The position numbers and the translations under genes were made by a program. A stretch of 34,585 nt of DNA, taken from the NCBI GenBank assembly GCA_017883615.1, contig JADGNF010000068.1:1-34585 (forward strand), given 5' to 3'. This DNA comes from Candidatus Bathyarchaeota archaeon. Lineage in GTDB: Archaea; Thermoproteota; Bathyarchaeia; Bathyarchaeales; Bathycorpusculaceae. Under the pieces are notes generated by a model. That model saw nothing but the letters and a program-made list of their open reading frames with translations, was not told where the DNA came from and did no database searches. Shown in pieces: positions 3,217 through 20,467 of the stretch. How positions within the stretch are numbered: the first letter of the stretch is position 1; each line of letters begins with the position of its first letter.

Positions 3217-3576
3217 GTGACAACACAGCAAACCGGAACCGAACACCCCCGCATAACCCGAGAAAAGAAAACCATCGATTGCATGGTTCACATTTACTGC
3301 AAAGCCCATCACAAAACCCATGGCGAACTCTGCTCCGAGTGCACCGAGTTCGAAACTTACGCATTCATACGGCTAGATAAGTGTCCGTTTCAGGAAAAGA
3401 AGAGCACCTGCGGCAAGTGCCTAATCCACTGCTACCGCCCCGACATGAAGGAGAAAGTGAAGAAGGTCATGAGATTTTCGGGTCCACGTATGCTGCTGCA
3501 TCACCCGGGTTTGGCGCTTCATCACGTTTGGGATGGGCGAAGAAAGCCCCCAACGCTTGCAAAGAAAGCCGGCTAA
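3217..3576 (+). CDS. YgbA-family ('nitrous oxide-stimulated promoter') protein
   Basis: A 119-aa Cys-rich protein of the family that includes E. coli YgbA. Visible family marks: REKKTIDCMVHIYCKAHH, LCSEC (Cys39, Cys42), RLDKCPF (Cys56), TCGKCLIHCY (Cys65, Cys68, Cys72) and the ending MRFSGPRMLLHHPGLALHH. The Cys pairs suggest a metal site. In E. coli the gene is under the NO-sensing repressor NsrR; nothing here shows how the archaeal copy is controlled. GTG at 3217 is preferred because GGAG lies at 3206-3209; an upstream TTG/ATG pair (3175-3180) lacks a site. Its 3' end faces the ABC permease gene 11 bases away. Confidence 0.72.
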   Translation: MTTQQTGTEHPRITREKKTIDCMVHIYCKAHHKTHGELCSECTEFETYAFIRLDKCPFQEKKSTCGKCLIHCYRPDMKEKVKKVMRFSGPRMLLHHPGLALHHVWDGRRKPPTLAKKAG

Positions 3577-18990: not shown

Positions 18991-19192
18991 GTTTTCACGC
19001 TATTGCTTTCTTGGGCTTGAACATATCTTTTTCTCTGCTCAGACTCGAAGTCGTTTCGATGGTGAAAGGCGCATTGACCTACCCCCTCCCTCCCTTTTCT
19101 GCATACATCAAATATTAGGCACAAAACATGAAATTCAAACTTGCAAATTCACTGGCGACGTTGGCGTTTGTTTGATTTTGACCAGCAAGTTT

Positions 19193-19228
19193 ATATGAAT
19201 AGTAATTCATATGAATAAGTGTTCATAT
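19193..19228 (+). promoter_or_regulatory. Two overlapping ArsR operators on the TATA box
   Basis: Two 20-bp palindromes of the same form, ATATGAA-N6-TTCATAT, lie at 19193-19212 and 19209-19228 and share four bases; their centres are 16 bases apart. TGAA-N6-TTCA is close to the SmtB/ArsR site pattern. The TATA box TTTATATG (19190-19197) overlaps the first site, so binding would block TBP. The first gene downstream is an ArsR repressor, which points to autoregulation. Confidence 0.72.
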
Positions 19229-19244: not shown

Positions 19245-19565
19245 ATGAAAAAAACCCTTACAACCATTTGCTACCACTTCTTCACCAACCTCGCAAACCC
19301 AACCCGACTTGCCGCCCTCGAACAACTCATGGACAAACCCATGAGCGTAAACGAACTCGCCCAAACCCTCGGACAAGAACAAAGCATGATATCCCACAAC
19401 CTCAAACCCCTCCTCGACTGCAACCTCATCACGGTTGAAAACCAAGGGAAAAAACACATATACACAGTCAACAAGGAAACAATTGCGCCCATCTTCAAAG
19501 CCATAGAAAACCACGCCCAAAAATTCTGCCCCAAAGGGGGAAAATGCCTAACAGGAGAAAACTAA
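19245..19565 (+). CDS. ArsR-family repressor
   Basis: A 106-aa winged-helix regulator: helix YHFFTNLANPTRLAALEQLM, recognition part SVNELAQTLGQEQSMISHNL, wing ENQGKKHIYTVN. The C-terminal FCPKGGKCL (Cys95, Cys101) could bind a metal or an Fe-S cluster and differs from the alpha-3 CVC site of arsenic sensors, so the inducer may be redox or metal rather than arsenite. ATG at 19245 follows GTGGAT weakly; TTG at 19230 would extend it by five residues. The next gene starts one base after its stop. Self-repression is suggested by the operators above. Confidence 0.88.
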   Translation: MKKTLTTICYHFFTNLANPTRLAALEQLMDKPMSVNELAQTLGQEQSMISHNLKPLLDCNLITVENQGKKHIYTVNKETIAPIFKAIENHAQKFCPKGGKCLTGEN

Positions 19566-19566
19566 C

Positions 19567-20220
19567 ATGGTCCAAAGAAAAATCGTACACATAAATGAAG
19601 CGCTATGCAACGGATGCGGAACCTGCATCCCCAAATGCGCCGAAGGCGCACTGCAAATCGTTGACGGCAAGGCAAGAATGATCACGGAAACCTACTGCGA
19701 CGGTTTAGGCGCCTGCCTTGGACAATGCCCGCAGGGAGCCATCACGATAACAGAGAGGGAAGCCCCCGCGTTTGACGAGAAAGAAGTTCACCAGTACCTC
19801 CAAAGCAAAACTCACGCAGCACCCCAGACAAAACCCGAAGCCGAAACAGCACCACAAAAGCCACAGTGGCCAGTCAAACTCAACCTGGTCACAACAAAAA
19901 CGCCGTTCTTCGAGAACGCCGACCTACTCATCGCCGCCGACTGCGCACCAGTTGCCCTCAAAAACTTCCACAGCCTCCTGCTCCCTGGAAAAAAGGTGCT
20001 CATAGGCTGCCCCAAGTTCGATGATGCCCGAGCCTACGCGCAAAAACTCGGCGAAATCCTAACGCAAAACAACATCGCCAGCATCACAGTCGCCCACATG
20101 GAAGTACCCTGCTGCAGTGCCCTAAAATGGGTAGTAAACAAGGCGCTTGAAACTTCAGGAAAGAAAATCCCTGTTAAAGAATTTGAGATAAAAATTGGAG
20201 GCGAAATAGTTGAGCTCTAA
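19567..20220 (+). CDS. 4Fe-4S protein with C-terminal Cys-rich domain
   Basis: A 217-aa cytoplasmic iron-sulfur protein. Cys14, Cys17, Cys20 and Cys24 form one cluster motif; the second has Cys44, Cys50 and Cys54 with Leu47 in the usual Cys place. After a proline-rich linker (about 80-100), the C-terminal domain carries GCPKFDD (Cys near 143) and VPCCSAL (two Cys near 180), which may bind another cofactor. Such proteins occur in anaerobes, often beside an ArsR gene and hybrid cluster protein. It probably moves electrons in an anaerobic stress response; partner unknown. It is coupled to ArsR and to the next gene. Confidence 0.78.
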   Translation: MVQRKIVHINEALCNGCGTCIPKCAEGALQIVDGKARMITETYCDGLGACLGQCPQGAITITEREAPAFDEKEVHQYLQSKTHAAPQTKPEAETAPQKPQWPVKLNLVTTKTPFFENADLLIAADCAPVALKNFHSLLLPGKKVLIGCPKFDDARAYAQKLGEILTQNNIASITVAHMEVPCCSALKWVVNKALETSGKKIPVKEFEIKIGGEIVEL

Positions 20221-20467
20221 AGATAACAAACCCACAGAAAAAAACCCTCAAACCTGCCCCGGACTTCGAGACCTAATCCAACCCAAACCCGCATACGTGA
20301 AGTGCCATGTTTGTGGCGCCGATGTGGAGGTGTGGAGCGACGAAGACAAAACCACCTGCACCGAATGCGGCGCTGAGTGGAAACGTCCAGACAAATCCGC
20401 TGAATGCCTCGAATACTGTCAGTATGCGGACAAGTGCAGGGCGTTGATTGAATCTCGTAAGACCTGA
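20210..20467 (+). CDS. Small Cys-rich protein of the ArsR operon
   Basis: An 85-aa protein with a Cys-rich layout: TCPGL, then a zinc ribbon CHVCG ... CTECG and a tail CLEYCQYADKC. The eight cysteines suggest two metal sites. The TTG start lies inside the end of the Fe-S gene (11-base overlap) and has GGAGG seven bases upstream, so it is translated with that gene. Function unknown; expected to act with the Fe-S protein. Confidence 0.72.
   Translation: MSSKDNKPTEKNPQTCPGLRDLIQPKPAYVKCHVCGADVEVWSDEDKTTCTECGAEWKRPDKSAECLEYCQYADKCRALIESRKT

Follow-up and report, generated by a model that had tools for sequence, protein, structure and literature searches.

Bathyarchaeia occur widely, but most have never been cultured and their gene control is poorly known. 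In one Candidatus Bathyarchaeota genome, a contig of 34,585 nucleotides (JADGNF010000068.1; hereafter the window, by which we mean the whole stretch of DNA that was analysed) carries two overlapping palindromes upstream of an arsR gene, raising the question of which protein these palindromes serve, which genes they control and which signal they answer. Our reading, to which we assign a probability of about 0.6, is that the paired palindrome is a double operator for the ArsR protein encoded 16 bp 3′ of it, and that this protein represses its own synthesis and most likely responds to nitric oxide (NO) or a nitrosative-oxidative signal.

The element consists of two exact copies of ATATGAA-N6-TTCATAT, neither of them assigned to a strand. 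Predicted operator site 1 (ATATGAATAGTAATTCATAT), which is kept in all 34 family orthologs described below, spans positions 19193–19212, and predicted operator site 2 (ATATGAATAAGTGTTCATAT), likewise conserved, spans positions 19209–19228. The two sites have the bases ATAT (19209–19212) in common and lie 16 bp apart from centre to centre, exactly as the original prediction had described for its two 20-bp sites with four shared bases, and the element ends 16 bp 5′ of the arsR ATG (19245). The inner half-sites of both operators form the central palindrome TTCATATGAA (19206–19215, no strand assigned), and the four half-sites together can alternatively be viewed as a single element of 36 bp, ATATGAA N6 TTCATATGAA N6 TTCATAT. 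Site 1 overlaps a TATA-box-like element of the arsR promoter, recognized by its sequence (TTTATATG, 19190–19197, plus strand), with an offset of −6 from the box to the left TGAA. Using the usual archaeal distance between TATA box and start site, we infer that arsR transcription starts near 19219–19222, inside site 2.

Across the window, the 20-bp site has two exact matches and five matches with at most three mismatches, versus 1.5 expected. Across the 1.73-Mb genome, these two sites are the only exact matches, four further places match with two mismatches versus two for the reversed pattern, and TTCATATGAA occurs three times, equal to the reversed control. Chance and AT-richness were considered as the origin of the element and rejected, as shuffles, the reversed-pattern control and conservation all argue against them.

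The conservation of the element was evaluated in relatives of the window protein. A family search of 90 genomes gave a protein match at E ≤ 1e-3 in 66, from which 34 proteins with at least 51% identity were taken; eight of the weaker matches, all excluded from the 34, were fetched, seven of which served as paralog controls and one of which (L046) yielded no row. The double element is present upstream of all 34 orthologs with 0–3 mismatches at 24 specified positions, while first-order Markov resampling of the ortholog upstream regions (200 each) gave a minimum of six mismatches. The seven paralogs (34–43% identity) all lack the double element, showing 9–12 mismatches, which is the chance level. 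Within TTCATATGAA, six of the ten columns are invariant in the 34 orthologs, two are kept in 33, one in 32 and one in 27. The comparison of orthologous upstream regions, which the original prediction had named as its test, thus speaks for the motif, and the 16-bp spacing is kept as well. In locus L010, an extra CATATGAA follows the usual element 5′ of arsR and resembles a nascent third overlapping site.

Two peptide patterns derived from the alignment were then run against a set of 84,980 species, each represented by a single genome, and returned 78 named loci, most of them labelled Candidatus Bathyarchaeota or one of its genera, with L139 labelled Jordarchaeum and L142 Thaumarchaeota. For each locus, 150 nt of upstream DNA was scored, and a double element was defined by at most four mismatches at 18 core positions and at most two per site. 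By this definition, a double element lies directly 5′ of arsR in 62 of the 78 loci; in five more (L084, L087, L089, L090 and L095), arsR sits just 3′ of hcp and the double element lies about 1.7 kb upstream, before hcp. Seven loci have one good site only, five of them keeping the right-hand site with zero core mismatches, and four show no site: bases are masked in L107, the match is weak in L113, the upstream DNA of L128 extends over 122 nt, and the gene of L143 is truncated. Three additional arsR genes, L204 (outside the class), L206 and L207, lack the double element, with 5, 6 and 3 core mismatches, respectively. A phylum sample of 398 genomes gave 31 protein matches at E ≤ 1e-28, only one of which (G425) falls outside the class, and the arsR promoter of this genome (L204) carries a single TGAA-N6-TTCA site. 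Since single-site and siteless arsR promoters exist, two dimers are not always needed. The L139 record, a contig with an Asgard label (Candidatus Jordarchaeum), carries an arsR-ferredoxin pair with a perfect double element, pointing to either gene transfer or a binning error.

The spacing of the two sites is nearly fixed. Among 79 promoters (the 78 loci and the window), 64 site pairs have at most one core mismatch, and 60 of the 64 are spaced at exactly 16 bp; first-order resampled promoter sequence gave no pair at this distance. Pairwise identity among 68 double promoters is 91% in the half-sites, 43% in the spacers and 32–50% in the flanks, and for the spacing and identity comparisons the DNA upstream of hcp replaced that upstream of arsR at five loci. 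A simple script, ambiguous in places (for example L139), assigned a TATA-like box in 67 double promoters: 32 boxes show the same overlap with the left site that the window has, and 35 lie further upstream, most often shifted by six more bases. The proposal that the first site covers the TATA box is therefore correct for the window, but it describes fewer than half of the double promoters with an assigned box. An extended TATA box, with the element as a mere side effect of it, was rejected as the cause of conservation, because the box position varies while the 16-bp spacing stays unchanged.

The arsR gene (19245–19565, plus strand) encodes a 106-residue winged-helix regulator that scores above the cut-offs of two ArsR/SmtB-family models, NF033788 (70 bits, cut-off 55) and PF01022 (41.2 bits, cut-off 22, E 1.5e-10). 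An AlphaFold2 monomer model (mean pLDDT 89.8) was used for helix limits and fold matches. In the fold search, SmtB is the best match (Z 14.7, rmsd 1.7 over 95 residues), with CzrA at Z 14.4, and by sequence the nearest solved relatives are NmtR (E 4.7e-13), SmtB and CzrA. The motif TGAA-N6-TTCA is what we take to be the core of the SmtB/CzrA operator. Inverted repeats of the 12-2-12 type, in one or two copies near the start site, are described as operators of the SmtB/CzrA/NmtR branch (PMC8790569), and the two predicted sites of the window, conserved and at fixed spacing, are of this canonical type, in agreement with the original prediction of an ArsR-family protein with sites at its own promoter. 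Thus, the window ArsR resembles this branch in fold, sequence and operator type. It differs from the branch in that most of the compared metal ligands are missing, in that its sites overlap by 4 bp at a fixed 16-bp spacing, and in that the scanned targets are not metal genes.

The protein contains four cysteines and one histidine that are conserved in its relatives. Specifically, C9, C59 and H90 are invariant in 78 of 78 relatives, whereas for C95 and C101 the count is 77 of 78 (with one alignment gap), counts that are to be read with the truncation of one of the 78 genes (L143) before the Cys/His positions; alignment A2 comprises proteins from 65 of the 78 named loci plus that of the window. 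The peptide patterns of the scan fix residues around E45–H51 and N18–R21 and leave all five of these positions free. In the model, C9 is positioned within helix 1 (residues 3–16), C59 just after the recognition helix (46–58), C95 just after the last helix (77–94), and C101 in the low-confidence tail. The earlier emphasis on a Cys95/Cys101 pair is correct in its numbering from the ATG at 19245, but it is too narrow, as C9, C59 and H90 are equally invariant. The four cysteines could serve as ligands of a metal or a cluster, or could react directly.

Downstream of arsR, the operon encodes a 217-residue protein (19567–20220, plus strand) with an N-terminal 4Fe-4S ferredoxin domain (Pfam Fer4 families), which is FrdX-like, and an 85-residue zinc-ribbon protein (20210–20467, plus strand; PF08792, 27.4 bits, cut-off 22.9), for which we know of no role. 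A comparison of the 4Fe-4S protein against 72,556 plasmid records gave two matches. The better match, from Roseburia (43% identity over 97%), is located within a cluster of hcp, a Crp/Fnr regulator gene and the gene for the 4Fe-4S protein; the second, from Acetoanaerobium (37%), is not accompanied by hcp within 4 kb. Because the better match adjoins hcp and a Crp/Fnr regulator gene, the operon reads as arsR-frdX-zinc ribbon, with the assignment to FrdX resting on homology to the 4Fe-4S protein of the Roseburia hcp cluster. ArsR here reads as filling the place that a Crp/Fnr regulator has in bacteria. Around arsR in the window, the gene content is not that of an ars operon: the next two genes downstream, together with a flanking gene to either side, encode the 4Fe-4S, zinc-ribbon, NUDIX and SnoaL-like proteins.

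Class-wide, 256 genomes were scanned with the pattern TGAA-N6-TTCATATGAA-N6-TTCA, allowing at most one mismatch. Double sites number 81, spread over 64 genomes, versus two for the reversed pattern. Each of the 81 sites precedes arsR, hcp, a 4Fe-4S-protein (frdX-type) operon, ygbA or a flavodiiron gene. In particular, 57 sites lie immediately 5′ of arsR (one arsR being cut by a contig end, in G232), and six precede hcp-arsR operons. The remaining 18, all of which were fetched, precede a frdX-type operon (12), ygbA (4), hcp (1) and a flavodiiron-type gene (1); many of the genomes behind the site counts are related, and these 18 are not independent events, because G139–G141 carry identical elements. 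One example of each target family was identified by Pfam (YgbA_NO, 133.5 bits; Prismane; ODP with flavodoxin; DrsE_2) and the rest by tblastn. The description of the window operon as a redox operon can be made more specific, because the same element precedes hcp, frdX-type, ygbA and flavodiiron genes elsewhere in the class.

A DsrE-family gene lies divergently at six of the 12 frdX-type sites, 97–151 bp away, and at these sites the element may serve either side. This arrangement is seen in genus g38 (L178–L180, L182, L208 and L210), where the element lies between frdX-type genes and the divergent DsrE-family gene. In L178 and L182, a small ORF (74–80 residues) comes first in the frdX operon, and the ORF of L182 has no Pfam match. 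By eye, ORFs resembling genes of iron-sulfur assembly (NifU/IscU, with IscS in L183) are present 1–3 kb from the double sites at positions 248–625 of L178 and 3869–5432 of L183.

The element and arsR occur together. arsR is present in 62 of the 64 element-bearing genomes and in 31 of the 192 genomes without the element; the two element-bearing genomes without a counted arsR are G232 (the cut arsR) and G043 (hcp behind the site). Within the arsR-bearing set of 93 genomes (98 minus five with a best E above 1e-30), 31 have no strict double site. Furthermore, hcp is found in 56 of the 93 genomes with arsR versus 18 of the 163 without, and ygbA in 51 of 93 versus 21 of 163, both uncorrected for kinship; 37 of the 93 arsR-bearing genomes gave no hcp match. 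Among the 78 named loci, relatives are counted for hcp in 21, for the ferredoxin in 41, for the zinc ribbon in 39 and for ygbA in 4. In some loci with neither hcp nor ferredoxin, the next gene encodes a hemerythrin-domain protein (L103 and L113), a DUF438-hemerythrin-PAS protein (L101, L125 and L138), a cupin (L083 and L137) or a prismane/CO-dehydrogenase-family protein (L132). The L132 protein, encoded 3′ of arsR, has 632 residues and is longer than Hcp in other loci. Adjacent ArsR paralog pairs occur in L193, L102, L106, L108, L110, L120 and L137, and in L193 the short stretch separating the two arsR genes contains a double element, which precedes the second arsR and hcp.

In the genome of the window itself, the double element occurs only at the arsR operon, and the genome's own hcp (G000:C47) and ygbA have none. 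This ygbA homolog (PF11756, E 9.6e-43) shares the contig with the double operator, at 3250–3555 and thus some 16 kb away, and its promoter has no element. A large regulon in this genome was considered and rejected, given the few near matches and the absence of sites at hcp and ygbA. ygbA is found in 72 genomes of the class, and 30 ygbA promoters were fetched, the four element-bearing ones not among them; none of the 30 has a double element within three mismatches, the best (L240) having four and the rest at least six. At least three of these 30 ygbA genes (L214, L229 and L231) sit inside arsR operons.

The most likely signal is NO or a related nitrosative or oxidative stress, because hcp, frdX, ygbA and flavodiiron genes lie behind the element across the class and hemerythrin-domain genes lie beside some arsR genes. 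Against this reading stand the missing elements at hcp and ygbA in the window's own genome, the 30 ygbA promoters that lack the double element, and the 31 of 93 arsR-bearing genomes with no strict double site. With the same double operator and autorepression, the signal could instead be persulfide, as a form of reactive sulfur, or thiol oxidation in general, as in BigR, SqrR and HlyU. All three of these proteins appear in the fold search (Z 11.1–13.3), a DsrE-family gene is divergent to frdX-type genes at six of the 81 double sites, and the four cysteines are invariant. However, the window ArsR scores only 28.1 bits with the BigR model (cut-off 155), no sulfur-oxidation family apart from DsrE is found among the 10 + 8 Pfam-scanned target and neighbour genes, and hcp, ygbA and flavodiiron genes indicate nitrogen oxides, so we consider a sulfur or thiol signal unlikely.

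Distinctly less probable, in our judgement, is an SmtB/CzrA-type or ArsR-type metal sensor, whose cysteines would coordinate As(III) or a metal ion and which would control iron-sulfur proteins. The closest solved relatives are metal sensors, the four cysteines and one histidine are invariant, and AfArsR is described as binding As(III) through three cysteines of one chain (PMC11212059). In the alignment with SmtB, on the other hand, the α3 cysteine position is occupied by serine, and of the three α5 ligand positions covered only the histidine (H90) is kept, so that two of three differ; the fourth α5 position falls outside the covered region. The identities of the SmtB α3 and α5 ligands used here are those we presume. 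At the positions compared, the protein has neither the α3 cysteine (ELC motif) nor the α5 Asp/His/His/Glu set of classical metal sensors, in accordance with the original prediction that its Cys pair is not the classical arsenic site. Moreover, no metal-efflux or arsenic family is found among the Pfam-scanned genes. Metal or arsenic sensing as the default was therefore rejected, as neither the compared SmtB ligand positions nor the scanned neighbours fit. In L184, two transporter-like ORFs outside the Pfam-scanned set lie 1–3 kb from the element and not behind it.

A single dimer on the central TTCATATGAA with auxiliary outer half-sites, or an element made of two 16-bp direct repeats, would account for the high conservation of the centre but is very improbable, as the inner half-sites of TTCATATGAA are only 6 bp apart from centre to centre, versus 10 bp (about one turn) in TGAA-N6-TTCA, and single-site promoters retain the whole TGAA-N6-TTCA, which they do partly by the definition of their class.

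The double-operator reading can be put as a mechanism. Each TGAA-N6-TTCA palindrome would take one winged-helix dimer, which would touch the major groove at two points separated by about one turn, a geometry that fits dimers of the SmtB type. Two dimers would then be 16 bp (about 1.5 turns) apart and, because they would approach the DNA from nearly opposite sides, both could bind despite the four-base overlap. That the spacing is fixed suggests a joint role for the two dimers and is consistent with the cooperative binding that had been proposed. With both sites of the window occupied, TBP/TFB would be kept off the TATA box by one dimer and RNA polymerase off the start site by the other, and the promoter position of the sites suggests repression of the arsR operon, in which ArsR would keep down its own gene together with those for the FrdX-type 4Fe-4S protein and the zinc-ribbon protein. 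A nitrosative or oxidative signal acting at the set C9/C59/C95/C101, together with H90, would free the DNA from the repressor, whereupon FrdX, an electron carrier, would be induced, as would Hcp, YgbA and flavodiiron proteins in relatives.

Regulators with related features are known. The methanogen redox regulator MsvR has a V4R sensor domain, an extra domain that is absent from the 106-residue ArsR, and its DNA motif is different. MsvR is described as having an ArsR-type dimer interface and at least two boxes at its own promoter and as being modulated through cysteines, with MthMsvR preventing TBP/TFB binding at its own promoter (PMC3729527). The window ArsR does not belong to this family, scoring 30.3 bits against a cut-off of 220 and matching profile positions 9–93 of 236. 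CmtR of Mycobacterium tuberculosis, a cadmium sensor and ArsR/SmtB repressor, reportedly binds multiple operators cooperatively and represses its own gene (Chauhan et al. 2009); the window ArsR scores 33.5 bits with the CmtR model (cut-off 150). Because MsvR and CmtR precede it, the use of several autoregulatory sites by an ArsR-like protein is not new in kind. In corynebacteria, ArnR is described as a winged-helix protein with a 4Fe-4S cluster that controls hmp and narK and whose DNA binding is abolished by NO (PMC12343034). ArnR is unlike the window ArsR in having a separate C-terminal sensor domain with three cysteines, and the likeness, that of one winged-helix regulator to another, does not imply homology.

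The closest parallel in gene content is bacterial. The core of the HcpR regulon is described as hcp and the ferredoxin gene frdX, and the HcpR gene often adjoins hcp (PMC1274295, PMC545781). By analogy, the element-linked system looks like an archaeal counterpart of this regulon: targets of the hcp and frdX type are common to both, across the class although not for hcp of the window's own genome. HcpR belongs to the CRP/FNR family and is unlike the ArsR-family protein in family and in DNA motif, and activation of hcp-frdX is predicted for HcpR (PMC545781), whereas repression is suggested here. In Escherichia coli, ygbA is listed among the genes repressed by NO-sensitive NsrR (PMC1274295).

A more far-reaching proposal, which in our estimate falls somewhat short of an even chance, is that the tetra-cysteine (plus histidine) ArsR, possibly acting as an Fe-S-cluster or S-nitrosation sensor, is the NO/nitrosative regulator of many Bathyarchaeia, that it controls an Hcp/FrdX/YgbA regulon through the doubled 36-bp operator, and that it represents an independent archaeal solution to the role of HcpR and NsrR. 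In the open-licence literature, we found no earlier description of an archaeal or ArsR-family nitrosative regulator like this one, nor of an ArsR in connection with Bathyarchaeota, and we know of no ArsR-type family in a nitrosative-stress role. With one to three copies per genome, the DNA mark finds its own targets and so defines a regulon that can be tested. If the signal is nitric oxide, the system would be an archaeal nitrosative-stress regulator drawn from the ArsR family.
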